A stretch of 37,370 nucleotides of DNA. Source: a virus. Below are positions 1,796 through 36,543 of this stretch, in pieces; positions within the stretch are counted from its first letter, which is position 1, and each line of letters opens with the position of its first letter. Below the pieces are notes generated by a model, which saw only the letters and a program-made list of their open reading frames with translations, ran no database searches and was not told the DNA's origin. The stretch spans positions 1 through 37,370 of the IMG/VR virus record IMGVR_UViG_3300020200_000071. One strand, written 5' to 3'. Made by a program: the position numbers and the translations under genes.

Positions 1796-3034
1796 TTATT
1801 CGCCAAATTTAATCTCGTATGTAAAATTAGCTGGATCCCAGCTCCTACTCATATGGATGTCGATTTCCTCTAGCTCTATTGGGAATGAATTAGTAATTTC
1901 ATATTTTATCTTTGTGCTCATAAACAAATTAGTGTCATCCAGAATCTCAATATTTAATTCATCCCAAGTTTCATAGTCATCTTTATCAACATTAAATACT
2001 TCTAGACTAAATTGCATTAAGATACTTAGCGCAGTTACGGCAATTTCATTTATTCCAGCTCGACCGTATGCTGGCACCATGTGATATTTTACAGTACACT
2101 TTTCTGGTCTAATATTTTCAAGATATAAGCCATTACTTAACCCTAGCTGAGTTAGCCGTTTTAAATCGGGATATTTTTTATTAATTAGAGCCGTTATATT
2201 ATCTGGAAACGTGGTAGGTGGATCATATGTGTCAATATTAACGTATCCTATACTTTTTTGAAAAATATAATATTCGTCCGATTTGTCCCATTTAAATTTA
2301 TTATCGCTATCCAAGTTAATAGTTTCATTGGTTTTTCTAACCTTTTGTGCTAGATCTTTATCCGCTTTACCCCAAGTACCTTTGCCTTTAGTTGCAAATG
2401 AATTTACTCGAGCCATTGCCCATTGGTGTTGGGTTACTCCAGGTCTATGACCTGTTCGCCAAGCGGCAAGGCCTCTATTGTAAACGCTGCGTAAGATTGA
2501 TTTAGAAATTTCAGTAGTCTTTGCTTTTTTATCGAGAGCTGAGTCAACTTGACCTTCTGAGATCTGCTCCATGAAAGCTTCTCCAAACATTTGATGAAAC
2601 TTTTTTGTATGCTGACTAGTTTTAGTTTTATAGGGCTTGCCACCTTTGCCATAATCAGCTTTCCAACCACCATCTGGGTGACTCGTATATGCACTTGCAT
2701 CTTTTGAATCTTTATGAGAGTGCTTTTTAATCTCATCTTTCATTGCTCTTGCATTCTTAGTAAGATACTTTGGATTGATTTTACCTTCGTCTTGTGCGTT
2801 CATTGGCTCAAGCTCCTTCTCTAATAGACCAGAAACTACTACAATATTAGTACCGTCCATCGAAACTGGCGTTTCGAGTTCAACTTCATAAAAATCAACG
2901 CCAGGCAAATATGTTTGTGAATAGCGTTCAACGACAGTCGCAAATTCTCCATCTGCCGCTCTAAAAAGTGCAGATGAATCTTTCCTATCTTCAGAGAATC
3001 TAAGAATTACCTTATCGTCAATGTCAAACCTCAT
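1796..3034 (-). CDS. DUF5824-like phage protein
   Basis: A 412-residue protein. Its middle (about residues 88-230) holds patterns I recall from the DUF5824 family of phage proteins: KYLTKNARAMKDEI, then HPDGGWKADYGKGGKPYKTK, then SVYNRGLAAWRTGHRPGVTQ and WAMARVNSFATKGKG. The function of that family is not known to me. The C-terminal 180 residues look like a separate alpha/beta domain with an acidic end. The start overlaps the stop of the preceding gene as ATGA, which implies translational coupling to the small basic protein at 3031-3285. Its place in an operon of head-associated-looking proteins suggests a virion or late role. It lacks the N-terminal targeting-like peptide of its neighbours. 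Confidence 0.75.
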   Translation of the reverse strand: MRFDIDDKVILRFSEDRKDSSALFRAADGEFATVVERYSQTYLPGVDFYEVELETPVSMDGTNIVVVSGLLEKELEPMNAQDEGKINPKYLTKNARAMKDEIKKHSHKDSKDASAYTSHPDGGWKADYGKGGKPYKTKTSQHTKKFHQMFGEAFMEQISEGQVDSALDKKAKTTEISKSILRSVYNRGLAAWRTGHRPGVTQHQWAMARVNSFATKGKGTWGKADKDLAQKVRKTNETINLDSDNKFKWDKSDEYYIFQKSIGYVNIDTYDPPTTFPDNITALINKKYPDLKRLTQLGLSNGLYLENIRPEKCTVKYHMVPAYGRAGINEIAVTALSILMQFSLEVFNVDKDDYETWDELNIEILDDTNLFMSTKIKYEITNSFPIELEEIDIHMSRSWDPANFTYEIKFGE

Positions 3035-3285
3035 TTCTTTTTAGCCTTTTTTCGACCTTTTTTCTTTGGTGCTTCTTCTGGTTCTAATTGATCTCTAAAC
3101 TTTTTAATCTTTAGTCTAGCTTCAATTGCTTCAGCTCTAGCATCACGACGTTTTTTAAAATAAGTATCGGTCTTATTAACCTTTTTGTCACTGTTGGCAT
3201 CTACATCCTCTTGGCCAACTAGGTCCATTTCAGGTTTTGTCTTCTTAGCTTCAGTGATGTACTGCGAAAATCTGTAGAGTTTCAT
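3031..3285 (-). CDS. Small basic internal-head-like protein with capsid-targeting-like N-terminus
   Basis: An 84-residue, highly charged protein with a Lys-rich tail (KKKGRKKAKKK) and a predicted helical middle (about residues 43-67). It begins MKLYRFSQYITEA. T4 internal proteins begin MKTYQEFIAEA and are cut after I-x-E by the gp21 prohead protease; here the equivalent site would be ITE followed by A. Small size, high charge and this N-terminus fit an internal head or prohead core protein that binds packaged DNA. That role is inference; no family was recognised in the body. Stop and next start overlap (ATGA), and the upstream cupin-like gene ends 4 bases before this start. Confidence 0.7.
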   Translation of the reverse strand: MKLYRFSQYITEAKKTKPEMDLVGQEDVDANSDKKVNKTDTYFKKRRDARAEAIEARLKIKKFRDQLEPEEAPKKKGRKKAKKK

Positions 3286-4159: not shown

Positions 4160-4552
4160 TTAAATGCCGTGTTCTCTTCTAAGCGTCATTTCATCATGTT
4201 TCATTTGATCCTTTGCCATTTGATCAAGTTCTTTCTCTGAATACTCTGGCATTTTATATCGAACGTTGTCACTTTTGTCTTCAGTTGGTTCGTCAATTTC
4301 GTTCTTAACAAAGTTAAATACTTCTTCAATATCGTCCTTTGATGTAGCAATATGGTCTACTGCCCAACTGTGGCCGCTTTTTAAGATATTATCAACCTCG
4401 ACCTGATCCATTTCAAGTAAAGTTTCACAAAGTCTCTTAATTGTTTCCAGATTACCAAAGAACATATAGTTTTCAGTTTGGTGTTGAGCATCGCGATCAA
4501 TATTATCAGAATTCTCATCAATGAACTGATCAAACTTTTTAAGTAGGTTCAT
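4160..4552 (-). CDS. Small acidic protein with capsid-targeting-like N-terminus
   Basis: A 130-residue protein when started at ATG 4552, which overlaps the upstream stop as TAATG; a two-codon extension to TTG at 4558 is unlikely. The N-terminus reads MNLLKKFDQFIDEN, matching the F-x-x-F-I-x-E pattern shared across this window, with IDE followed by N as a possible prohead-protease site. The rest is acidic and helical with no recognised domain, and ends in a Met/Lys/Glu-rich segment. A head core or internal protein is the simplest reading. The evidence is the N-terminus and the operon context only. Confidence 0.65.
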   Translation of the reverse strand: MNLLKKFDQFIDENSDNIDRDAQHQTENYMFFGNLETIKRLCETLLEMDQVEVDNILKSGHSWAVDHIATSKDDIEEVFNFVKNEIDEPTEDKSDNVRYKMPEYSEKELDQMAKDQMKHDEMTLRREHGI

Positions 4553-6033
4553 TACCAATTGTTTTTATTTTTTAAAAATTCAGAGAATTCCATAATTCTC
4601 TTCTTCTTTTTCTTTGGATTAAAATTATCTCCTGAACCCAATGTTGTTTGAGTTGGTGGAGTAATCGGTCCCATTGAACCAATTGATGCAGGTACTTGCA
4701 TTGCTACGCCTGGCGCAACTGCCTCTTCTGCAACATTATCTACTTTGTCCAAATATTCAGTAGTCGGCATAAACATTCTAGAAACGGCATCTGCTTTTAT
4801 TTCGCCTGTACGACCGCCAACTAGTTTTCCAATTGCTTTTGCAGTTCGGTTTAGTGCAACTGAATAGATTGTAGAAAAAGAAGCACCTAGATTTTGAAAT
4901 GCGATGCTTAATTGACTTTGCGGTTGCTGTGAATTACCAAATATGATTGAGGAAATTTCAATGAATTTCTTTTTAGCTTTTGCAATAAATGTGTTATCCG
5001 CAATCTGCTTACCAGTCACTGGCAACATTACTGTTTTGAATAGCGGTAACTTAGTATTAAAGTCATAATGAATTCCCTTGTTTAGTTCAAGCCTCAGTGA
5101 TTTATCCTGTGCTCGGCGTAATAGGGTTGCTTCAATTTGATCAACCCATGTGCTTAAGTATGCTTTTGAATCAGCATCTAAATTGTCATTATTTGCAATT
5201 CTAACATTTCTAAGCAAACGGGCAGTTTCTTTAATTTCAGCTTCTTGAGCATATAGCTGTTCAAATTCAAGTATGTCCTTTACGATCTTTGTAAAAAAGA
5301 TATTATTAATTTTTCGGTAACGAATCTCTTCAAGTTCTTCTTCAGTTAACTCAGACTTAATTGATTCCTCTGCTTGCTGTTTTGCCTGTTTAACGCCAGT
5401 CATTATCTCTTGCGGATATTCTTTAGTTATTTCCTCTATTTCTTCAAAGTCAACATATACCTTCTCAGCGGCTTTGTATTTTTCAATAGGCTGACTATTT
5501 GACCTTATTACAATTAACGACTGCTTAATTTCGTCAGACTTAACCTGAACCGGTGTCATATAAAAATTACGAATATCCTGTTTTATTTCGCTAATTGTTG
5601 CAATTAATTCATTTGCTTTTTCAATCTTTGCCTTTCTGTAAATTTCATCAAGCAATTCAATTCTTTCTTGAATTTTAGCAGTCCCAACGTTTAATTGTCT
5701 AACCTCGTCTGAAGCAAAAACTCCACCGGTCAACAGCGAATTTATTCTATTTTTATTTTCCTGTATTCTAGTTTTTGAGTACGCTAAATATTCAGACATT
5801 GTCGAAATAACCGCGTCTGCAGTAAATGCATTTATGAAATTAGGATTGTCTAAATAGGCTTGAATATTTTTATCAATTAAATCGTCAAGCATTAAATCGA
5901 TCTTATCAAATGCGTCCTTTTTTTCAGAATCAGATGCGCCAGTAATGCTGTTAATGTCACTGCCAACTCTAATAATGTCTGCTTCCAATAGCAGACTTTC
6001 AAATATAGAAAGTCTTTTTACGTTAAATATCAT
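4552..6033 (-). CDS. Long helical protein with targeting-like peptides at both ends
   Basis: A 493-residue protein, mostly charged helix and probable coiled coil between about residues 60 and 300, rich in I, E and K. The N-terminus reads MIFNVKRLSIFESLLLEA, with LLE-A as a possible prohead-protease site. The C-terminus has a Lys run (KKKKK) and ends IMEFSEFLKNKNNW, which resembles the F-x-x-F-L motif seen elsewhere here. The middle (about 345-410) is more globular, and residues 420-465 are Pro/Gly-rich and flexible. A prohead core or internal scaffold-like role is possible. No domain was recognised. The start overlaps the upstream stop (ATGA). Confidence 0.7.
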   Translation of the reverse strand: MIFNVKRLSIFESLLLEADIIRVGSDINSITGASDSEKKDAFDKIDLMLDDLIDKNIQAYLDNPNFINAFTADAVISTMSEYLAYSKTRIQENKNRINSLLTGGVFASDEVRQLNVGTAKIQERIELLDEIYRKAKIEKANELIATISEIKQDIRNFYMTPVQVKSDEIKQSLIVIRSNSQPIEKYKAAEKVYVDFEEIEEITKEYPQEIMTGVKQAKQQAEESIKSELTEEELEEIRYRKINNIFFTKIVKDILEFEQLYAQEAEIKETARLLRNVRIANNDNLDADSKAYLSTWVDQIEATLLRRAQDKSLRLELNKGIHYDFNTKLPLFKTVMLPVTGKQIADNTFIAKAKKKFIEISSIIFGNSQQPQSQLSIAFQNLGASFSTIYSVALNRTAKAIGKLVGGRTGEIKADAVSRMFMPTTEYLDKVDNVAEEAVAPGVAMQVPASIGSMGPITPPTQTTLGSGDNFNPKKKKKRIMEFSEFLKNKNNW

Positions 6034-12297: not shown

Positions 12298-13854
12298 TTG
12301 CTAAGATTTAAAGTTACCGATGATCGTCAATACCTGCAATTAATCCATTCGGATCTAAAAAAAGAGGCTAAAGACCTCAAACTGCACTTTCGCAAACGTC
12401 AAAAAGGCTATCACTTTAATGTTCTTTATAAGAGAAGGCTTTGGGATGGCTATGATAAATTTATAGACTCAGAAAATCGAATAGGCATTGGCCTTTGGCG
12501 AGAAGTAATAAAGTTTGGACAAAACTTTGGTTATGAAATTGAAATCGAAGGTTTAGACTCTTTACTTAATTTAGATTTTACTAGAGAGATGTTGGAGAAG
12601 TTTACGTCAGTTCTCTTAGATGGATCTAATATTGATACTCGAGACTATCAAATGGAAGCAGCTCACCGAGCCCTTAAGTATAAATTTTGTGCACAAGAGC
12701 TTGCTACTTCCGCCGGTAAGACGCTAATTCTTTACATTTATATCTCCTTTCTTAAAAGAAAGGGTATTGTCTCAACAGACAAAAAAGCCCTGATTGTTGT
12801 TCCAAATATTTCGTTAGTCGGCCAAACTGCTGAAAAGTTTGAAAAGGAATATCAAACTGGTTTACTTAATTATAAAATAATGCAGATAGGCGGATCAAAT
12901 AAGTATTCAGATAAAAAGTTTGAAGAAGCTGATCTAGTTATTTCAACTTACCAGAGTTTAGCTAATCGAGAACCTGAATGGTTTTTAAATTTCTCAGTAT
13001 TATGTATTGACGAGGCCCATACGTCAAGAGGGGATTCAATTAAAAATATCTTATTATCTTCTAAAAATGCAGAATATAAGCTGGGACTCTCTGGCACAAT
13101 TAAAGTTGAGGAAGAGTACTCTGACTTTTTTAAGATCCAACAGTATTTAGGTCCATTATCGATGGTCCTTAAGCCAAGTTTTTTAATTGAGCAGCAGCAC
13201 TCGCCAAATGTATACATTAAAATGATAAAGCTTAAATACCCAGAAGACGAACCGTGGGTTAAAAAGTATCTATGGCTCAAAGCGAATAATAAATCAATTG
13301 ATGGTAAAGCCATGTTTACGATGGAACGTGAGTTTATTGTTAGTTATGAGCCACGAATAAATTTTATATCAAGCCTCTGTCGAAAACTTGATGGCAATAA
13401 GCTTATCCTATTCATTAACGTTAAAGACCAATATGGAGCTAAAATTGCTAACCAAATTAGAGAATGGAATGAAAACTGCTATTATATCGATGGCGAAGTC
13501 GGCGACCGGGATCGAGCTTCTTATAAAAATGCAATGGAAAAAGGCCAAGGTGTAGTATTAGTTGCATCATATGGAACTTTTTCTACTGGCATTGACCTTA
13601 AAAATGTCAACCATATCATTTTTGCAGAGAGCTACAAATCAGAAATCACAATTAGACAGTCGATTGGTCGAGGTATGCGCCAATTAGCTGGTAAGCATGA
13701 AGTAGTCGTTTATGATTTAATTGATGACCTTAATGGATACATTGTAAAGCACGGAGCGACTAGGGAAAAAATCTACAATCGGGAAAAGTTTATTGTGTCA
13801 AAACACCAGTTTGAGCTGCTCAAATTTAGAATTAACTCTCATTCACAAAGTTAA
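12298..13854 (+). CDS. uvsW: UvsW-like superfamily 2 helicase
   Basis: A 518-residue protein close in length to T4 UvsW (about 500). The N-terminal domain matches UvsW in layout, including FNVLYKRRLWDGYDKF. Helicase motifs follow in order: motif I TSAGKT near residue 140, motif II DEAH near 239, motif III LSGTIK near 264, VASYGTFSTGID near 425 and motif VI RQSIGRGMRQ near 455. UvsW unwinds branched DNA and R-loops and acts in recombination-dependent replication and fork rescue. The reading frame is open only from TTG at 12298; an ATG 7 bases upstream is in another frame and stops after six codons. The 3' end overlaps the convergent gene by 23 bases. Confidence 0.9.
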   Translation: MLRFKVTDDRQYLQLIHSDLKKEAKDLKLHFRKRQKGYHFNVLYKRRLWDGYDKFIDSENRIGIGLWREVIKFGQNFGYEIEIEGLDSLLNLDFTREMLEKFTSVLLDGSNIDTRDYQMEAAHRALKYKFCAQELATSAGKTLILYIYISFLKRKGIVSTDKKALIVVPNISLVGQTAEKFEKEYQTGLLNYKIMQIGGSNKYSDKKFEEADLVISTYQSLANREPEWFLNFSVLCIDEAHTSRGDSIKNILLSSKNAEYKLGLSGTIKVEEEYSDFFKIQQYLGPLSMVLKPSFLIEQQHSPNVYIKMIKLKYPEDEPWVKKYLWLKANNKSIDGKAMFTMEREFIVSYEPRINFISSLCRKLDGNKLILFINVKDQYGAKIANQIREWNENCYYIDGEVGDRDRASYKNAMEKGQGVVLVASYGTFSTGIDLKNVNHIIFAESYKSEITIRQSIGRGMRQLAGKHEVVVYDLIDDLNGYIVKHGATREKIYNREKFIVSKHQFELLKFRINSHSQS

Positions 13855-14617
13855 GAAAATTCGCTTTGGCGTTTTTCTCAAATTTTATGTGTTCATTCTT
13901 AATGAATATTAGAGCCTCTTCGTGACGAGCAAGTACGCCAATCTCATCCTCAATTAATCTAAGTACCTCCATCTTTTGATCGGTAAGATCAGCGTATGCC
14001 ATGTCCGATTTTCCTCGGACTAGGCCTAAATCTGTCAATCTATCTCTTTCGCTGGGTTCATACTCATGAATTGCTCTAATATCAGCAAGCTCGTCAATTT
14101 CAAGATTTTGAATTGAGCTATTATACTCGTCCATTTGTGCTTCAATGTTTTCTAAAATATCAGTTAACGAAGACTCTGGAACTGGACACATCCATCCCCC
14201 ACTTTGGCCAAGCATACGCACTTCTTTAAATACATCGCCATATTTAGCTAAGAACACATTATTAATAAAATCATCAGTTTCAAACTCTAACCAATTCCAC
14301 CAGGCTCTGTCCAAATCATCATTTGATGCTTCATCGTTGCCGCTAGCCTTTTTATAATCTTCTAAGCTTACGTCTGCATATAGTTTAACATCTATTGCAT
14401 AGTGAGCCTCAAGATCTCGTGAATATCTATTGTAGCCCCATTCTCTACTGTCTAACTCATCAACTTTAGAGTCTAGTTCCTGAAGGGCATCAGCTAATTC
14501 CTGATTAAAATTAGATAGCTCATCTAATAGTCTAGTATAGGTATCAACGAGTCGATCACGGTTCTCAAGGTAATAAGATTCATTTATAAAATTTGAAAAT
14601 TTCTTTAGGAATTTCAT
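13832..14617 (-). CDS. Virion-associated-like protein with capsid-targeting-like N-terminus
   Basis: A 261-residue acidic, helical protein. I start it at ATG 14617, which overlaps the upstream stop as ATGA; a TTG three codons earlier is less likely. The N-terminus, MKFLKKFSNFINES, fits the shared F-x-x-F-I-x-E pattern, with INE-S as a possible prohead-protease site. Residues 192-199 read DRLTDLGL, a second motif shared with three other proteins here. A predicted coiled coil covers about 20-60 and another about 155-260. No known domain was recognised. A head-internal role is inferred from the two motifs. Confidence 0.65.
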   Translation of the reverse strand: MKFLKKFSNFINESYYLENRDRLVDTYTRLLDELSNFNQELADALQELDSKVDELDSREWGYNRYSRDLEAHYAIDVKLYADVSLEDYKKASGNDEASNDDLDRAWWNWLEFETDDFINNVFLAKYGDVFKEVRMLGQSGGWMCPVPESSLTDILENIEAQMDEYNSSIQNLEIDELADIRAIHEYEPSERDRLTDLGLVRGKSDMAYADLTDQKMEVLRLIEDEIGVLARHEEALIFIKNEHIKFEKNAKANFLNFVNES

Positions 14618-15024
14618 TTTTTCCAAGTACCTTTAGCTTTCATTTTTGAAATTTCAATAGCTTGCAATTGTTTAACTGCTTTTTCCTTTGATGGATGGGT
14701 ACCGAGTACCTTTTTACCTTTTGAATCAAGAACAACCCATTTATCTCCACGCCTTGCAATTTTCTCTATTATAAACTCGCCAAACCCAATTACCTTTTTT
14801 TCCGATATGGCGACCGGCTCTAATACTGGAACCGAAACAGGCTGGTCTGCTTGCTGAATTTGCTGGGTTTTGACCTCATTAAATATTTTGTCTACTTTAT
14901 CGACTAATTCTGTTACTTTGGTTTGGATAAGGCACAATTTTTGAAACTGATCTTTAGTAAGAGTTTCAAAAGATTCCTCAACTGAATAGAGGTACTTTAT
15001 AAATAAATCCATCTCAGTTTGCAT
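14614..15024 (-). CDS. Small protein with internal targeting-like motif and a conserved C-terminal phage domain
   Basis: A 136-residue protein when started at ATG 15024, one base after the upstream stop; a TTG start at 15060 would add 12 residues. The first 60 residues are helical. Residues 78-87 read VIGFGEFIIE, resembling the short motif that is N-terminal in neighbouring proteins. It is followed by a compact beta domain, KWVVLDSKGKKVLGTHPSKE and then KAVKQLQAIE, a repeat-like module I recall from many phage proteins. The function is unknown. An internal I-x-E site could separate the two halves if the prohead protease acts here, which is speculation. Confidence 0.65.
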   Translation of the reverse strand: MQTEMDLFIKYLYSVEESFETLTKDQFQKLCLIQTKVTELVDKVDKIFNEVKTQQIQQADQPVSVPVLEPVAISEKKVIGFGEFIIEKIARRGDKWVVLDSKGKKVLGTHPSKEKAVKQLQAIEISKMKAKGTWKK

Positions 15025-15025
15025 C

Positions 15026-15646
15026 TTACAGAGATATTTTTGAGGCAATGACAACTCCAAGAATTAGCTTCGTATAAATCAAACGAAAGTTATAGTACGC
15101 ATCAATAATTGCATATTCGTCCTTGCTTAACTTAACTAATCCTTTTTTGTCGGAAAGCCGGTTAATGCTATTTATCAACTGGACAGTATCTTTAATTTGT
15201 TTATCTCCTATCAGTACTGCTAAAACGTCACTAAATGTTGAATATGCCAGCATTGTTTTTGAATCAGCCAGCTTCTTAATCCAATCATCAGCTATTTCAG
15301 TGCAGTCGCGCTTAGTTAATAGGTCTGTTGTCACGAGCCCTTGATTTAGGATCTGTGAAATGACATCCAATTCGATAACCGTTTCGGCCCGACGGTGAAC
15401 CCAAACAAGATCCGTTTCATGAATATTAATTGAAAATCTAGAATCCTTTTCATAGACGAACCTAATGATCGGCGATGAGTATTTGGCTAACTTTGGGTCA
15501 TAGCCATCTTCGTCAGATATTGAAACGCCTTTTAGGCCATAGGGAATTTCTCCAACCTCTAACGAAAATTCAGAAAATGGAAAATTCACCAAAAATGGAT
15601 ACTTTTTGTTTAAAATCACTCTATCTTGCATGAGCAAGGCTGCCAT
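15026..15646 (-). CDS. Hypothetical protein, first gene of a three-gene operon
   Basis: A 206-residue protein that I do not recognise. The N-terminal half is beta-rich (strands around residues 18-75, with YGLKGVSISDEDGYDP); the C-terminal half (about 85-206) is helical and ends in a hydrophobic segment, LIYTKLILGVVIASKISL, that could be a membrane helix or a buried helix. Two downstream genes follow with a one-base gap and an ATGA overlap. A late-type box AATAAATA lies 17 bases upstream of the ATG, so late expression and a virion role are plausible. T4 late operons contain several baseplate proteins of similar size, but no specific match is visible. Confidence 0.6.
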   Translation of the reverse strand: MAALLMQDRVILNKKYPFLVNFPFSEFSLEVGEIPYGLKGVSISDEDGYDPKLAKYSSPIIRFVYEKDSRFSINIHETDLVWVHRRAETVIELDVISQILNQGLVTTDLLTKRDCTEIADDWIKKLADSKTMLAYSTFSDVLAVLIGDKQIKDTVQLINSINRLSDKKGLVKLSKDEYAIIDAYYNFRLIYTKLILGVVIASKISL

Positions 15647-23758: not shown

Positions 23759-25015
23759 TTATTTCTTATCTGTGAAGTCTTTAAATGACAGGACTTTATT
23801 CTCGTTTATAAACCCATTTCGATATGTTGGATGCTGTAGTGCTCGATTAGTGGTTACCGGATTAATTGGCTGATTTGTGACTTTTTTATTTAGTTTAAAA
23901 GCGCTAGCCGGCACAGTGTATTCGCCGGTCTCATTAGTTCTTAATATTTTCCAAATGATCTTTGGATTTATTTTGTCCGGAATCCCCTGCGCAAATGAGG
24001 CAAAGTCGTCATTCTTTAAAAATCTTCTAAGGTCCTTTCCATATAGATCTCGGTTGCCGTCGCTAAACTTTGCTCGGCCAGTATTAACCTTTTGGATGTT
24101 CTTTATCTTACCAGCGAATTTATGAACGTCATCAAATCTTGACATATCATCAGGTGCTGCATACAAAGTAATTGCGTGGTTTGGTGCATCAGCCGTCTCG
24201 CCAAGTGCATAAATCAATTGATATGCACTTCGAACTGGAGAGATACTTGTCTTTTTAATTATTGTATTTTTTGAATTTTTACCAATATACTTCTTTAAGA
24301 TTTTGATTGCCTTGTCTGCAGTGATTCCGCCCTCAGGCCTATCAGAAACGTAGATCATAACTTGATCATTTTCAGCAAGGGCTCTCTTAATTATTTCATA
24401 GTGGCCTTTGTGAGGAGGCTTAAATTTACCGGTAAAAATTCCAATTTTCTTCATTGTAATCTCTGGCAATTGCTCGGGCTTAATATGTTCAGTTTTAATC
24501 TTAATTGAATATCTTTTCTCGAGCAGCTTTGCATGCTTTAGGTTATTTATGTCGTCGTCGAAGAAAATAAATTTAGAATAGCCTTTCTCTATTAGTTTTT
24601 TAAAGGCTTGGCTCTTTTTTTCTGCATTTGTACCAATGAATTTTGTGCCAGGTTCATTTACTGCAAATACAAGGTCTGGGTGAATATCTACTCCATGACT
24701 TAACATAAATTCTCTAACGAGCTTAGCATCTCCCCTAGCTGTGATTATACCTACTGCTCCCTCTTTTGCATAGACTTCTTTCATAATATCAAGAGTCCAC
24801 TTAACGATTGTGCCGGCTCGCAAGATATCAGGATCATCAAACTGGGAGAAATTAATAGAATGATTTACATTTCTCTCGTAATCGTTAAATTCCTTTGGTG
24901 ACAGATAAAATTTAGAACCAGTTCGAGAGTCCATGACCTCGATACGAGCATTAGTTACAACCAGAGTATCGTCAAGGTCAAAAATTGCAATAGTGCGTCC
25001 TCGAATAGCCATCAT
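23759..25015 (-). CDS. HAD phosphatase fused to a cytidylyltransferase-like domain
   Basis: A 418-residue two-domain protein. Residues 1-175 are a HAD domain: IFDLDDTLV (Asp13, Asp15) in motif I, GIITARGD near 90 as motif II, and FIFFDDDINNL near 148 as motif IV. Residues about 190-380 form a nucleotidylyltransferase: IGIFTGKFKPPHKGHYEII holds the G-x-F-x-P-x-H-x-G-H signature that binds the nucleotide. The C-terminus ends INENKVLSFKDFTDKK, like the short targeting motif of other proteins here. The fusion suggests nucleotide end or cofactor processing, with the substrate unknown. A TATAAT box lies 4 bases before the ATG at 25015. Confidence 0.8.
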   Translation of the reverse strand: MMAIRGRTIAIFDLDDTLVVTNARIEVMDSRTGSKFYLSPKEFNDYERNVNHSINFSQFDDPDILRAGTIVKWTLDIMKEVYAKEGAVGIITARGDAKLVREFMLSHGVDIHPDLVFAVNEPGTKFIGTNAEKKSQAFKKLIEKGYSKFIFFDDDINNLKHAKLLEKRYSIKIKTEHIKPEQLPEITMKKIGIFTGKFKPPHKGHYEIIKRALAENDQVMIYVSDRPEGGITADKAIKILKKYIGKNSKNTIIKKTSISPVRSAYQLIYALGETADAPNHAITLYAAPDDMSRFDDVHKFAGKIKNIQKVNTGRAKFSDGNRDLYGKDLRRFLKNDDFASFAQGIPDKINPKIIWKILRTNETGEYTVPASAFKLNKKVTNQPINPVTTNRALQHPTYRNGFINENKVLSFKDFTDKK

Positions 25016-25082: not shown

Positions 25083-25793
25083 TTATCTCCAAGCTTCGTT
25101 CATCATGCACTCTTTAAAATAAGACGTACACTCATGAATATAACCGTCATACGTATGAGACTCATTTTCGTCTTGATGGTATTTCATACCCTCGTCAATC
25201 AAATATTCTTTACACATTGACCTAATCATTGACTTGGTTTTGGCTGAGCAGCCAGATCCTTCTGAAATAGGCTCATGATCAAAATATGGAAGTTCGTCAT
25301 CGTCACGCCTATTTTTAGGCCTATTGGCTAAATCGACCATTGCTTCTCCAATAAATTGTTTAAATCTTAGAACTTGTGATTCATTAATATCTGCTTCGTC
25401 TTTCTCTTTTTTAGCTGAGCCCATATCTGCACTAACATCACCAATTTTGATATCGTAATCGCCATTGCCGGCTTCTTCGATTTCGCAATTAATCAGGTAA
25501 ACTACATCATTATATTCAGAAGATAGGGTTCCTTTGTAAATTCCCTCTTCTTCAGTCTCTTCGCGATCGTCGTCAAGTTTAAATTCTAGAGCAACTTCTT
25601 CACCTTCAACTGTTTTAACTGTAATTGTGATAAAATCGCCGCCGTCTGCATCGCCTAATGAAACAATTTCGGGCTCAGAATGACCCTCTTGTAATTCTTG
25701 AATTCTTGCTTTTTTTATAGAATCCTCACCAATCAGCATATCATTTTCATCTTTCATAAACTTAGGTATGCTTCTGTTTCCAAATTTCCCCAT
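25083..25793 (-). CDS. Acidic protein with an internal targeting-like motif
   Basis: A 236-residue acidic protein. Residues about 40-125 form a beta-rich domain (DFITITVKTVEGEEVALEFK). Residues 137-151 read INESQVLRFKQFIGEA, with two potential I-x-E sites (INE-S and IGE-A) around a F-x-x-F-I core. The remaining 85 residues contain four Cys (CSAKTKSMIRSMC, then CTSYFKEC) and are probably a small helical domain. The internal motif parallels the one at 14614-15024. No family was recognised. A terminator follows at 25035-25063. Confidence 0.65.
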   Translation of the reverse strand: MGKFGNRSIPKFMKDENDMLIGEDSIKKARIQELQEGHSEPEIVSLGDADGGDFITITVKTVEGEEVALEFKLDDDREETEEEGIYKGTLSSEYNDVVYLINCEIEEAGNGDYDIKIGDVSADMGSAKKEKDEADINESQVLRFKQFIGEAMVDLANRPKNRRDDDELPYFDHEPISEGSGCSAKTKSMIRSMCKEYLIDEGMKYHQDENESHTYDGYIHECTSYFKECMMNEAWR

Positions 25794-31653: not shown

Positions 31654-32235
31654 CTAGAATTTTTTAATGCTTGGTGATCTTTTCTTAGTGTAATATTTCC
31701 AAGTATATGAGCTAGGATTTGCTTTTGCGTGCTCAAAGTCAATATTCTCAGCTGCCCATTGCATTGCCTTATCAAAGAACTCTAGATCGGACATTTTGGT
31801 GTAGCCTTCTGCGTGTGAAAATCTCTTAATCTTAAAATCCACTGAGCCAGCGTATCTTGAATGAAGACCAAGGTTAATTCCCTTTGGCGTCATTCGCCTA
31901 ATTAATTTTGTCCCGGCAAAGAATCCTATACCCCAGCCGTTTGATGGTGTATAATTTTGATCTAGTGAAAATATAATATTACCATTAACTAATTGTGTGC
32001 GACTGGATACCATATGTAACCCTAATGCCATTAGCTGCTTAGCGCCTTCTGTTTCTAGAGCCTGCTTAATGTCTTCTATGCCCATTGCGCCGCTTGCCAT
32101 ATAGGCTTCTCGACGAATTTCTCTTTTTTGAGCATCATATTCAGCATCATCGACCAGTCCAAGTTTTCTCATACGATCTAATTCGTCAAACTCGTATGTT
32201 TCATTAATAAATTGGGAAAAACTGTATAGTTTCAT
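31654..32235 (-). CDS. Virion-associated-like protein with capsid-targeting-like N-terminus
   Basis: A 193-residue protein. Residues 1-13 read MKLYSFSQFINET, nearly identical to the start at 3031-3285 and close to the T4 capsid-targeting sequence; INE-T is the possible cleavage site. Residues 20-27 read DRMRKLGL, the second shared motif, followed by VDDAEYDAQKREIRREA, a short helical hairpin. The body (about 60-180) is alpha/beta, with Trp/Gly-rich GWGIGFFAGTKLIRRMTPKG. No family was recognised. An exact TATAAATA box lies five bases before the ATG. Confidence 0.65.
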   Translation of the reverse strand: MKLYSFSQFINETYEFDELDRMRKLGLVDDAEYDAQKREIRREAYMASGAMGIEDIKQALETEGAKQLMALGLHMVSSRTQLVNGNIIFSLDQNYTPSNGWGIGFFAGTKLIRRMTPKGINLGLHSRYAGSVDFKIKRFSHAEGYTKMSDLEFFDKAMQWAAENIDFEHAKANPSSYTWKYYTKKRSPSIKKF

Positions 32236-33206: not shown

Positions 33207-34235
33207 TTAGTTCCAATAGCCTTTATCTCCGTTTGCGTGAATAATTCTACCCCAGTCGCTAGGTACAGCAAAGCCAGGATTATCGAATACTAGCCATATA
33301 GTCTTTTTACCCCAACTTTTTGGAGCAGGTGGCAAATTATTAGTTAAGTACCCATCCGTTATGATCACTACGAAATCTACATTGCCTTTTAGATTTTTAT
33401 CAATCCATGAGATTACATCTGGAATTGCTTCAGTTCCACCGCCGGTTCTAACCTTTGCAAAATCATCAGGTGTTGGCTTTTTAAAGCCCTTAATCTGAAA
33501 TGGATCTACTACTGTATTTGCAAAAGGCAATACAGAAACAGTTTTTATCTTCTTTGCTTTAACAATACCTACAACTTCTGCTGCTAATTCTGGAAAAGCT
33601 CCGGCAATTGATCCGCTAACATCCATTGCAACTGCTGCATTGTCCAATGCATTGTCAGTATCCTCTAATCCATAGCGATATTGACCTGTACTAATGTGTC
33701 TACGATTCGGTAATTTAAATGAACTTGATGACGCAAGTTTTCCTATAAATCTTCTTAGCTCTTGTCGCCAATTAACTTTAGGCTCAGTAAGTTCCATAAT
33801 ACGCTGGTAGATAGCGCCCTTTCCACTGCCAGCTGATTTAGATCTTGGATTTAAGTGAGTCTGCGCAAGCTTACGACCTAGGTCTTTCCAATCTTGGTCA
33901 GACATATTTCGGCTCTCGCTCGGATCAACTCCCTCTTCTTCGGCAATTCTTCGACCTTTTTCTCTAGTAATTACCTCGCCAGTCATCGGCCCTCTTATGA
34001 CAGTCACTGATGGTTGCGCATCGTCATCTGAAAAGTCTCCGCTTTTTACCATCGGCGATTTTTCTGAACCTTCTTGTTTGCCGGAATCTTGGCCTTCACC
34101 ATCTTGCGGTTCTCCATGTTCGCCAGACTCTTGGTCACCAAGACTATCTGTTCGTTGTTGGCTTTGAGAAGATTGACCTCCATTACCTTGACCAGGCTTA
34201 TTGATTTTTACTATTTCGTCCAGACTCGCTTTCAT
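33207..34235 (-). CDS. VWA-domain protein (DUF2201 C-terminal type), partner of MoxR ATPase
   Basis: A 342-residue protein. Residues 15-75 are Gln/Gly/Glu/Ser-rich and disordered. A linker and helical part (about 85-185) precede a von Willebrand A domain with the MIDAS motif DVSGS at 205-209, a GGGTE loop near 268 and IITDGYL near 290. Such VWA proteins work with MoxR AAA+ ATPases as chaperone-like or metal-insertion systems. The ATG overlaps the stop of the HExxH protein (TAATG). In bacteria I recall the metallopeptidase-like part and the VWA part in one polypeptide (DUF2201); here they are two coupled genes. Confidence 0.8.
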   Translation of the reverse strand: MKASLDEIVKINKPGQGNGGQSSQSQQRTDSLGDQESGEHGEPQDGEGQDSGKQEGSEKSPMVKSGDFSDDDAQPSVTVIRGPMTGEVITREKGRRIAEEEGVDPSESRNMSDQDWKDLGRKLAQTHLNPRSKSAGSGKGAIYQRIMELTEPKVNWRQELRRFIGKLASSSSFKLPNRRHISTGQYRYGLEDTDNALDNAAVAMDVSGSIAGAFPELAAEVVGIVKAKKIKTVSVLPFANTVVDPFQIKGFKKPTPDDFAKVRTGGGTEAIPDVISWIDKNLKGNVDFVVIITDGYLTNNLPPAPKSWGKKTIWLVFDNPGFAVPSDWGRIIHANGDKGYWN

Positions 34236-34960
34236 TAACCGTTTACTATTTTAATAGCTTCTTCTTTTGTGATTGGTTCATAGTCGACTTCTCTAGTTGC
34301 TTCATCTATGCTTTTAACTATTCCATAACCACCAGTTCTTTCATTACGGATTACATCTCCAACTGAAAGAGGTTGGTCTTGGCCGCCTTGGCCCCGGCCT
34401 CCATCTTTATTCTTATCTTGTTGTGGTAGTGACTGAGGAGGAGACATAACTCCAGGATCCTCATAGATCTGTTCAGCGTTCATACCTTTATATCGTTCTT
34501 CGATTAGGCCCTTTAACTCATTTGCGATTTCACTCTTTGAAATAATGCCATCATCTGCTAGCATCAAATTAATTTCATAATCTGTTGCATAATTCCATTT
34601 TGTAGGAGAGCGACCATCCATTCTAGCGAAGTGTAATAGTGCACAGTGTAGAACTTCGTGGCATAGGATAAAAACAATTTGTTTATCAGTTAATGGTGCA
34701 AAAAAGTCAGGATTAATAAAAAGGTGAGTTCCATCGACTGCTGCCGTTTGGATTGCGGAGTTTCTAGTATAAACAATCTTTAGCTTGTATGCTAGTTCCG
34801 CAAAAAACCTATATCGGCCGGTTAATATTTGAAACGCATATGACGTCTTAATCCTAGCCTTTTTACTATTTAGATCCTCAATTTGATTTTCTAAGACTAG
34901 TTCAGTACTTGCAAATTCTTGATACCTGTTAAAACTATTCCAGTCTAATAGTATCTTCAT
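34235..34960 (-). CDS. HExxH metallopeptidase-like protein (DUF2201 N-terminal type)
   Basis: A 241-residue protein if started at ATG 34960, which overlaps the MoxR stop as TAATG; an upstream alternative at 35014 is unlikely. Residues 101-105 are HEVLH with a further H at 110 and a downstream WNYATDYEINLML, the pattern of zinc peptidase-like DUF2201 N-terminal domains (H-E-x-x-H, then W-N-x-A-x-D-x-x-x-N). The C-terminal third is flexible, Gln/Gly/Asp-rich (DKNKDGGRGQGGQDQ), ending in a small beta domain. The N-terminus, MKILLDWNSFNRYQEFAS, loosely resembles the targeting-like motif. It probably forms a complex with the VWA protein. Confidence 0.75.
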   Translation of the reverse strand: MKILLDWNSFNRYQEFASTELVLENQIEDLNSKKARIKTSYAFQILTGRYRFFAELAYKLKIVYTRNSAIQTAAVDGTHLFINPDFFAPLTDKQIVFILCHEVLHCALLHFARMDGRSPTKWNYATDYEINLMLADDGIISKSEIANELKGLIEERYKGMNAEQIYEDPGVMSPPQSLPQQDKNKDGGRGQGGQDQPLSVGDVIRNERTGGYGIVKSIDEATREVDYEPITKEEAIKIVNG

Positions 34961-36513
34961 TATTGTCCAAGTTTTTCGATTTCTTTCATTGAACCAGGAT
35001 AAGCAGCTAACCAACGTTTAAGACCGGCTTGCGTAACTGGATATTGATTATTTGCAACCTTTGGTTGAATTTCTCTAACTGCTGTTAAAATTTGAATTGA
35101 TACAGTTGGATCTCCTACTCTAATCAAGTATTCAAATAGATTGGCGATTTCTTCGTCAGTCAATTCGCGATCTTTGTATTCGTATGCAATTGCTGATGCT
35201 AAGATATATGCTGTATCAATTTCATAATCGTCTCGGCCTCTTGCTTTTGGCGGAAGCGGCGCGTCATTTGGTGTTGAGTAAACCAATCCCATTTTGTCAA
35301 GATCGATTTTTTGAGATAGTGTATAGTATCCCATAAACATCTGAGCTGCTTCTTTACCTACGTTCGGTGAAATTGCCTCGTCTTCAATAATTTCAGGAGT
35401 CAGTGTTTTACCAGAATCATCTGCTTCTTTTTTAAGATTCTTCCAAGCGATTGCAGCTGCTTCCCATGAACGTGGACTTGGGAAGATTGTTCCAGATATG
35501 TTTGGATCGTATTTATGGAAAAACTCCTGACCCTTAGTCCAATTAAGGAATGAAATAATGCGTGGATCGAAAAGGTCTTCGCCAGTTTGAGTTTTTGCAG
35601 AAAGTGCAAATTTGCTGTAATCCTTAATTGAAGGTGAGAAGTTTATTTGTTGAAAACGGTTACCTAAAGCCGACCCAAATTCAGATGTGTTGGTTTCGTC
35701 ATCTTCCATACGGTTTGATGCAGCAATAATTGTCCAATTGCTACCTAATTTCCAACCACCGTCCATTTCTCTGTCGAGAACTAGCTTTAAACAAATATTA
35801 CGAATTGCTTCTTTTGCTCTCGATAATTCGTCCAAGAAGATAATTCCTCCCTTTGCATCTATACCGTTTGCTTCATCATTTCCAGCTTTACCTTGAGATT
35901 CATGGTAAACCGGTAACCATCTTTGAGGAATACGAGTTGCTCTACGTGAGAATCTGTCCTGTGCTACAGCTGACCCATCAACCTCTGGTAAAAAGAAATC
36001 TTCCGGTGCATATGTTGTCAATTGGACATCGATCATACGACCACCGTATTTCTGTTGAATCATTTTAACGATTGACGTTTTACCAATACCTGGAGCTCCC
36101 CAAATCATTAAGGGGCGTTCGTCTTTATTTTTAATGATTCTATTAAGAATGTTAAGAAGTCTCTCAGATCCCACATTTGGAACACCCGCTTGAGGATTAG
36201 GAAAGTCCAATGAAACTACTGCTTCTGCAACTTCTGCAGTATCATTTTCTCTAGTAATTTTAGGCATAGCTGAAAGGCCTAGAGCCTTTGCATCTTCAGC
36301 CGATGGAATAATAGTTACGCCATAAGGAATGGTGCCGTTTGCTCCATCTTTTGATCTTTTGCCTGACATTTGTGCCTTTAGGGCACCTAAGAAATCTCCA
36401 GCTTTACCGATTAGGCCTTTGACTGCCCCGGCTACTTTTTTACCGAATGAGGCAAGGCTCTCATTACTTAAGTTCTCACCAATGAAATCTGTATAAGATT
36501 TGATAATACGCAT
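34960..36513 (-). CDS. MoxR-type AAA+ ATPase with capsid-targeting-like N-terminus
   Basis: A 517-residue protein. The N-terminus reads MRIIKSYTDFIGEN, matching the shared F-I-x-E pattern, with IGE-N as a possible prohead-protease site. It is followed by an extra Gly/Lys/Ala-rich segment of about 100 residues not typical of MoxR proteins. The AAA+ core has Walker A GAPGIGKT (139-146), Walker B GIIFLDELSRA (223-233) and sensor 1 IIAASNR near 257. MoxR proteins remodel target complexes with VWA partners, here the two genes directly downstream. A late box lies 22 bases before the ATG; the start has a weak Shine-Dalgarno (AGGA). Confidence 0.85.
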   Translation of the reverse strand: MRIIKSYTDFIGENLSNESLASFGKKVAGAVKGLIGKAGDFLGALKAQMSGKRSKDGANGTIPYGVTIIPSAEDAKALGLSAMPKITRENDTAEVAEAVVSLDFPNPQAGVPNVGSERLLNILNRIIKNKDERPLMIWGAPGIGKTSIVKMIQQKYGGRMIDVQLTTYAPEDFFLPEVDGSAVAQDRFSRRATRIPQRWLPVYHESQGKAGNDEANGIDAKGGIIFLDELSRAKEAIRNICLKLVLDREMDGGWKLGSNWTIIAASNRMEDDETNTSEFGSALGNRFQQINFSPSIKDYSKFALSAKTQTGEDLFDPRIISFLNWTKGQEFFHKYDPNISGTIFPSPRSWEAAAIAWKNLKKEADDSGKTLTPEIIEDEAISPNVGKEAAQMFMGYYTLSQKIDLDKMGLVYSTPNDAPLPPKARGRDDYEIDTAYILASAIAYEYKDRELTDEEIANLFEYLIRVGDPTVSIQILTAVREIQPKVANNQYPVTQAGLKRWLAAYPGSMKEIEKLGQ

Positions 36514-36535: not shown

Positions 36536-36543
36536 TATTTATT
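36536..36543 (-). promoter_or_regulatory. T4-like late promoter box AATAAATA
   Basis: Minus-strand AATAAATAAC, 22 bases before the ATG at 36513. AGGA lies 6 bases before the ATG, one of the few Shine-Dalgarno-like sequences seen here. Confidence 0.5.

Follow-up and report, generated by a model that had tools for sequence, protein, structure and literature searches.

Pairs of a MoxR-type AAA+ ATPase and a metallopeptidase-VWA protein have been described in jumbo phages, and a role in virion assembly was proposed for them by analogy with an archaeal virus (Iyer et al. 2021, PMC7824862). We analyzed a related system of three adjacent genes, encoding a MoxR-type ATPase, a metallopeptidase-like subunit and a VWA subunit, in the IMG/VR virus record IMGVR_UViG_3300020200_000071, whose whole stretch of 37,370 nucleotides is here called the window. 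The jumbo-phage pair of Atu_ph07 (PMC7824862) resembles the window system in ATPase type, in the peptidase-VWA partner and in gene adjacency; however, its partner is a single chain carrying HQILH and no tag is present, whereas in the window the partner is split, the ATPase begins with a candidate capsid-targeting peptide (hereafter the tag) and a late promoter motif is found. Similarly, gp24 and gp25 of phage N4 and their Schitoviridae homologues (PHROG 1297 and PHROG 1314) are a homologous ATPase and DUF2201 protein encoded by neighbouring genes, but the ATPase is short and untagged and the partner is single-chain. Since the MoxR/VWA pair was described in jumbo phages, and since homologues occur in N4 and in hundreds of phage records (613 matching GenBank phage records for the ATPase and 473 for the peptidase subunit), the pair is not new (PMC7824862). 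A close cultured relative was not found among the GenBank phages searched, and the bacterial homologues detected in a scan of genome contigs are 22-42% identical over part of the core. What is new is a clade of phage MoxR systems with a different proposed delivery route.

NorQ-NorD, CbbQ-CbbO and RavA-ViaA are cellular systems that act on host enzymes. They resemble the window system in having a VWA partner and in the fold of the AAA+ core (Z about 12 against both CbbQ2 and NorQ) and have, to our knowledge, neither a metallopeptidase half nor a capsid tag. The T4 internal proteins IPI-III and Alt are similar in another respect, as their N-terminal propeptide carries aromatic residues and [IL]xE, and an S77 protease is encoded by relatives of the window. 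We know of no AAA+ machine among the T4 internal proteins (partly from the table of PMC9026906).

In our judgement, the chances are even that a phage lineage has turned a MoxR AAA+/DUF2201 remodelling complex into virion cargo, which would be made late, loaded, trimmed and injected. We are slightly more reserved about the fuller proposal, according to which capsid-targeting peptides would bring the whole MoxR/VWA machine into the head, from which it would be injected together with the genome, protein delivery replacing the early genes of the sister lineages. The gene content, the split partner, the tag, the clade that it marks, its likeness to a scaffold repeat, a promoter contrast and the protease-scaffold genes of relatives are all read from the sequences; packaging, cleavage, ejection and the site of action are what we infer from them.

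Phage MoxR ATPases of two types

IMG/VR was scanned with an alignment of four ATPases, and 80 loci were obtained. The LONG ATPases (about 500-560 aa) have 116-165 residues ahead of the trimmed core, whereas the SHORT ATPases (330-401 aa) have almost nothing ahead of it and carry no tag. In a tree built from the AAA core only, with the extension excluded, 15 LONG sequences lie on one side of a branch with a support of 100/100. The LONG and SHORT counts of this section include close relatives and correspond to about five to seven independent lineages. The sequence [ILVM]xE was found within residues 7-26 in 15/15 LONG ATPases, and it is preceded by an aromatic-x-x-aromatic motif in 12/15 LONG ATPases as compared with 0/16 SHORT ones. 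The same tag pattern is present on the peptidase-containing partner in 11/11 LONG systems and in 0/8 SHORT systems; the partner in G011, which starts MLKNYKNFRNTLFE, is also tagged. Homologous operons without the peptide, which the initial annotation had named as a finding that would speak against it, do exist (N4, rV5, cyanophages and Atu_ph07), but only outside the clade, all sampled members of which have a tag-like ATPase start.

In the Staphylococcus jumbo phage DC4, the MoxR protein UFVDC4_00011 and the DUF2201 protein UFVDC4_00012 are homologous to the window pair by profile comparison, but the DC4 ATPase is of the SHORT type and, unlike the window ATPase, has no tag. One peptide of this ATPase was reported from purified virions, and the authors caution that co-packaging needs confirmation (PMC10638138). 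Being a single spectrum from a SHORT-type protein, it was considered too weak to be used as support for the LONG clade.

A capsid-targeting-like N-terminal peptide

In T4 IPIII, the first ten residues suffice for packaging, residues 4 and 7 being responsible for targeting and residues 8 and 10 directing the cut by gp21 (PMC9026906). The start of the window ATPase, MRIIKSYTDFIGE/N, shares the Y-x-x-F-I-x-E spacing of these targeting and processing residues. Its core SYTDFIGE, which is conserved in orthologues, has the N-terminal Y/F-x-x-F and [IL]xE of T4-type internal proteins, and the start MRIIKSYxxFIxEN is kept in three metagenomic relatives that are 79-87% identical overall. The broad tag pattern was detected at the N-termini of 18.8% of the window open reading frames and of 6.3-13.8% of those in six relatives, against an internal baseline of 2.2-3.2%; in the untagged SHORT control genome G016, the corresponding values are 1.5% at N-termini and 1.9% internally. 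The strict motif is enriched at N-termini with p=4e-4 to 4e-9 in G001, G005 and G008. In each of nine LONG genomes, moreover, likeness to the other N-termini of the same genome places that of the ATPase among the upper 2-23% of proteins. The house form in LR756500 (G008) is MKYIxxYxxFLxE, and the start of its peptidase-VWA partner, MKYIKSYENFIFE, belongs to the common N-terminus type of that genome (22 vs 3 expected). On the peptidase subunit, the tag pattern is kept in the window and in 5 close orthologues. The assignment of the ATPase peptide to the capsid-targeting type, already made in the initial annotation, is therefore upheld by the matching residues, the N-terminal enrichment, the likeness to the protease-scaffold repeat of relatives and the late promoter motifs (see below).

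Strict tags were also observed on four more window proteins encoded on the minus strand (3031-3285, 4160-4552, 13832-14617 and 31654-32235), with the starts KLYRFSQYITE, LLKKFDQFIDE, FLKKFSNFINE and KLYSFSQFINE; from their sequences, these proteins are predicted to be co-packaged cargo. Pfam and PHROGs gave almost no matches for the other tagged window proteins. Tag-like motifs are found in the window at C-termini (RIMEFSEFLKNKNNW, FLNFVNES and VLSFKDFTDKK; 4552-6033, 13832-14626 and 23759-25015) and internally (14614-15060 and 25083-25793), and these recall the C-terminal processing of T4 Alt and gp21. Near the MoxR system of LR756500, a tagged, leucine-rich-repeat-like protein (MKYIQTYKDFLLEAKEV...; L005, 9565-10338) is a possible injected effector. 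The generic tag pattern is not enriched in G006 and G007 (the contigs of L037 and L038), where a different N-terminus, of the approximate form MKxVxE[SH][LI]xxxFxRGxDxxxxLxIGKxxxI, is common to many proteins; the ATPase start resembles it too, and it is perhaps an alternative packaging module.

Prohead protease-scaffold genes in related phages

G001, G005, G008, G009 and G010 each encode a fusion protein in which an S77 (T4 gp21-type) prohead protease is joined to a scaffold-like part containing tandem repeats of 14 residues (consensus about YSEYLAENLDKNIS), whereas gp21 and gp22 are separate in T4. The SHORT phages have a stand-alone S77 protease frame of 209-255 residues. No S77 protease was detected in the fragments G002, G003, G004, G006, G007 and G011. 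In G001, the fusion gene lies just upstream of the Gp23-type capsid gene; a DnaJ-domain gene (L015, G001 68965-69858) was noted directly upstream of the fusion gene. Outside the scaffold, no sequence matches the repeat better than the ATPase tag of G005, YPEFLAENLN (1st of 33,106 positions), and the ATPase tag ranks second in G001 and G002 and third of 10,956 positions in the window. We infer from the sequences of relatives that the ATPase tag mimics the scaffold repeat. The full 14-residue repeat profile was also tried as a general tag finder, but it was rejected as too strict, missing most other tagged N-termini.

Promoter motifs upstream of LONG and SHORT ATPases

In the regions ahead of genes in G001 and G005, an over-representation of about 25- to 55-fold was found for the octamers AATAAATA and ATAAATAA, and in G001 they precede the protease-scaffold gene and several long structural-looking genes. 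A late-type motif is located 29-31 bp upstream of the ATPase gene in the window and in close relatives (L001, L003 and L032-L035). The window copy, AATAAATA, is of the same motif class as those at the G001 head and tail genes, the timing being read from the motif alone. In G008-G011, ATATATA-type motifs precede the MoxR system or its first gene, and they also precede the protease-scaffold genes in G008, G009 and G010. Upstream of SHORT ATPases, the sigma-70 consensus TTGAC-N16-19-TAnn[AT]T was found in 27/32 distinct regions and the late motif in 0/32, as opposed to 0/17 and 11/17, respectively, upstream of LONG ATPases. Motifs of the GATAAATA type are used at other places in the SHORT genome G016, though never before SHORT ATPases. 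Over all genes, the association between tag and late promoter is modest in these related genomes (odds ratio 2.7-3.8, p about 0.006). Early expression of the window operon was considered and rejected, as no sigma-70 consensus is present ahead of the ATPase gene. The likeliest interpretation of the motifs is a change of delivery, with early synthesis in the SHORT lineages and late synthesis followed by packaging in the LONG lineages.

Proposed mechanism and alternative explanations

In the packaging mechanism that we favour, the operon would be transcribed late, together with the head and tail genes. The N-terminal peptide of the ATPase, by mimicking the scaffold repeat, would recruit the ATPase into the prohead core, the weaker tag of the peptidase subunit would probably recruit that subunit likewise, and the VWA subunit, as the part that completes the split DUF2201 fold, would go in with them. 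The S77 (T4 gp21-type) prohead protease would then cut after [ILV]xE and free the proteins, which would pass into the next host along with the DNA and form the complex again. There, the ATPase, steered by its VWA/peptidase partner, would at once remodel a host or early-phage complex, at the stage when the untagged sister systems act through early transcription. If this is correct, the situation would be like that of T4 Alt versus ModA/ModB, but for a multi-subunit ATP-driven machine. A machine residing in the virion would act before any phage gene expression, so that host structures, or DNA entry and early transcription, would be left as its targets. MoxR-VWA systems are present in hundreds of phage genomes, and the tagged clade makes their function testable; the scaffold-like N-terminal peptide would also provide a simple sequence rule predicting injected cargo in a large group of uncultured T4-like phages.

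Several observations weigh against this mechanism. A folded hexamer should not fit through the portal, so the complex would have to be carried as single subunits and formed again afterwards. The window, a 37 kb fragment, contains no protease and capsid genes, both of which are deduced from relatives. In the house-style test of N-termini, the peptidase-subunit tag of the window was not significant (the pattern is conserved but weak) and no tag was found on the window VWA subunit. The ATPases of L036-L038 have another start (MKKxLVxE[ST]LQDF and similar), which is only analogous to the tag. Tagged genes are modestly enriched around the scaffold gene (14/81 vs 82/893, p=0.02, in five genomes), and G001 and G008 show no such enrichment. 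Phage lineage is a confounder of the promoter contrast, in which "early" and "late" are deduced from motifs.

Alternatively, the tag could dock the complex on the prohead scaffold, where core proteins would be remodelled or degraded during maturation and virion copies would be by-products. Late promoters and a scaffold-like tag fit this equally well; an archaeal virus reportedly needs a MoxR-VWA pair for tail assembly, a role in virion assembly was suggested for the pair of jumbo phages by Iyer et al. (PMC7824862), and the DnaJ-domain gene adjoins the protease-scaffold gene in G001. We nevertheless regard such a head-assembly role as unlikely. The untagged sisters stand under sigma-70-type promoters in phages with their own S77 prohead protease, which suggests a job early in infection and makes head assembly doubtful as the ancestral role. 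Degradation is also not essential, since HExxH is lost in some tagged partners (L040-L044). A plain head-assembly role was accordingly ranked lower following the SHORT/LONG promoter contrast. The initial annotation had left the choice between a packaged and a head-assembly machine; its packaged half is the likeliest reading, given the tag and the late motifs, and its head-assembly half is disfavoured by the promoters of the untagged sisters.

It seems rather improbable that the motif is some other docking or regulatory element recurring in this phage group, on a machine that stays cytoplasmic and acts late in infection. Similar motifs at C-termini and inside proteins, the large fraction of diverse proteins that carry the motif and the different N-terminus shared in L036-L038 would agree with this; however, the motif closes with the [ILV]xE processing consensus, is similar to the protease-scaffold repeat and, in G009 and G010, is present on genes that directly follow the capsid gene, and C-terminal propeptides exist on T4 head proteins too (PMC9026906). 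That the system is an ordinary phage MoxR-VWA auxiliary chaperone with an incidental N-terminal extension, as the wide distribution of the pair in GenBank phage records might suggest, is very improbable, because the extension and the tag define one clade, the tag follows the style of each genome and the promoter patterns differ.

Subunits of the operon and the split DUF2201 chain

The positions of the features are given in Table 1. As first described, the three genes are coupled, both junctions reading TAATG, and the identities of the ATPase, HExxH/DUF2201_N and VWA/MIDAS proteins were confirmed by Pfam (all scores above the curated cut-offs) and by motifs. The ATPase contains Walker A GAPGIGKT, Walker B GGIIFLDE, sensor-1 AASNR and the arginine-finger region LGNRF; the P-loop, D228-E229, N267-R268 and R286 are invariant, and AAA_5 (38.7 bits), AAA and bpMoxR (28.6/27) were matched. 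About 115 residues were counted ahead of its AAA+ core, in agreement with the roughly 100 extra residues reported initially. The peptidase gene matches positions 7-181 of the DUF2201_N profile (95.2 bits), and its HExxH is intact (HEVLH, residues 101-105). The VWA gene, two genes downstream of the ATPase gene, contains the rest of DUF2201_N (157-257) and the DUF2201 VWA domain (26.2 and 42.4 bits); its MIDAS residues D205-S207-S209, T268 and D294 are invariant across homologues.

Table 1. Operon features in the window and protease-scaffold fusions in related genomes.
Feature	Position	Strand	Basis or remark
MoxR-type AAA+ ATPase, 517 aa	34960..36513	-	AAA+ motifs, Pfam, PHROG 1297, AlphaFold2 model
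Metallopeptidase-like subunit, 241 aa from ATG	34235..34960	-	First two thirds of DUF2201_N, HEVLH, small beta domain
VWA subunit, 342 aa, without tag	33207..34235	-	End of DUF2201_N and DUF2201 VWA domain, complete MIDAS
TAATG stop/start overlap, ATPase/peptidase genes	34958..34962	-	Read in sequence
TAATG stop/start overlap, peptidase/VWA genes	34233..34237	-	Read in sequence
Candidate capsid-targeting propeptide MRIIKSYTDFIGE of ATPase	36475..36513	-	Predicted cut after E13, before N14
Remaining N-terminal extension: predicted helix (residues 18-50) and linker before AAA+ core	36175..36474	-	LONG clade only
Weak candidate tag MKILLDWNSFNRYQEFASTELVLE on peptidase subunit	34889..34960	-	Y-x-x-F, then [VI]LE site
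Late-promoter-like AATAAATA, context TGAATAAATAACAAAAAG, 30 bp upstream of ATPase start	36536..36543	-	Position shared in relatives
Protease-scaffold fusion loci	L015 (G001 66909-68900), L118, L119, L117, L120		YSEYLAENLDKNIS-like repeats

The AlphaFold2 model of the ATPase has an overall pLDDT (predicted local distance difference test) of 73, residues 1-37 and 89-107 being of low confidence. Its core aligns with CbbQ2 (Z 11.9 over 235 residues) and NorQ (Z 11.8 over 211), both of them MoxR proteins working with a VWA partner. Dynein and other AAA+ modules reach similar scores, so that the ATPase family cannot be assigned from the fold alone. The AlphaFold2 model of the peptidase subunit has a confident peptidase-like domain, whose fold is like those of selecase/minigluzincin and SprT at weak E-values. 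At its C-terminus, a small beta domain (about residues 200-239) gave weak KOW/SH3-like matches only. The small beta domain is also present in the split systems L032-L035 and in the second system of G010.

The DUF2201 layout described in the initial annotation, with both parts in one polypeptide, was indeed found in N4 gp25 and in the partners of Atu_ph07, Phosso, S-TIM66 and LR756500. The window departs from it, its chain being divided at the TAATG junction; the division is kept in relatives, and a split partner is seen again in L032-L035, L044 and the second system of G010 (contig of L045). Despite this other layout, the split subunits may function like the DUF2201 family. HExxH is degenerate in L040-L044 (QGIIH/QGISH, in tagged partners) as well as in Atu_ph07, and the peptidase site is therefore not needed in all members; judging from these sequences, the DUF2201 peptidase half-domain may be mainly a recognition or docking module.

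The label "HNH endonuclease" of PHROG 1314, which has been passed to N4 gp25 (NC_008720) and to many RefSeq records, looks like a misannotation, the proteins being DUF2201 metallopeptidase-VWA proteins. In addition, G010 contains two complete MoxR/peptidase/VWA systems in one phage, at 67.8-71.2 kb and at 208080-211516, one with a degenerate HExxH (QGISH) and the other with an intact HExxH and a tagged ATPase, MPSIKKFDQYVNE.

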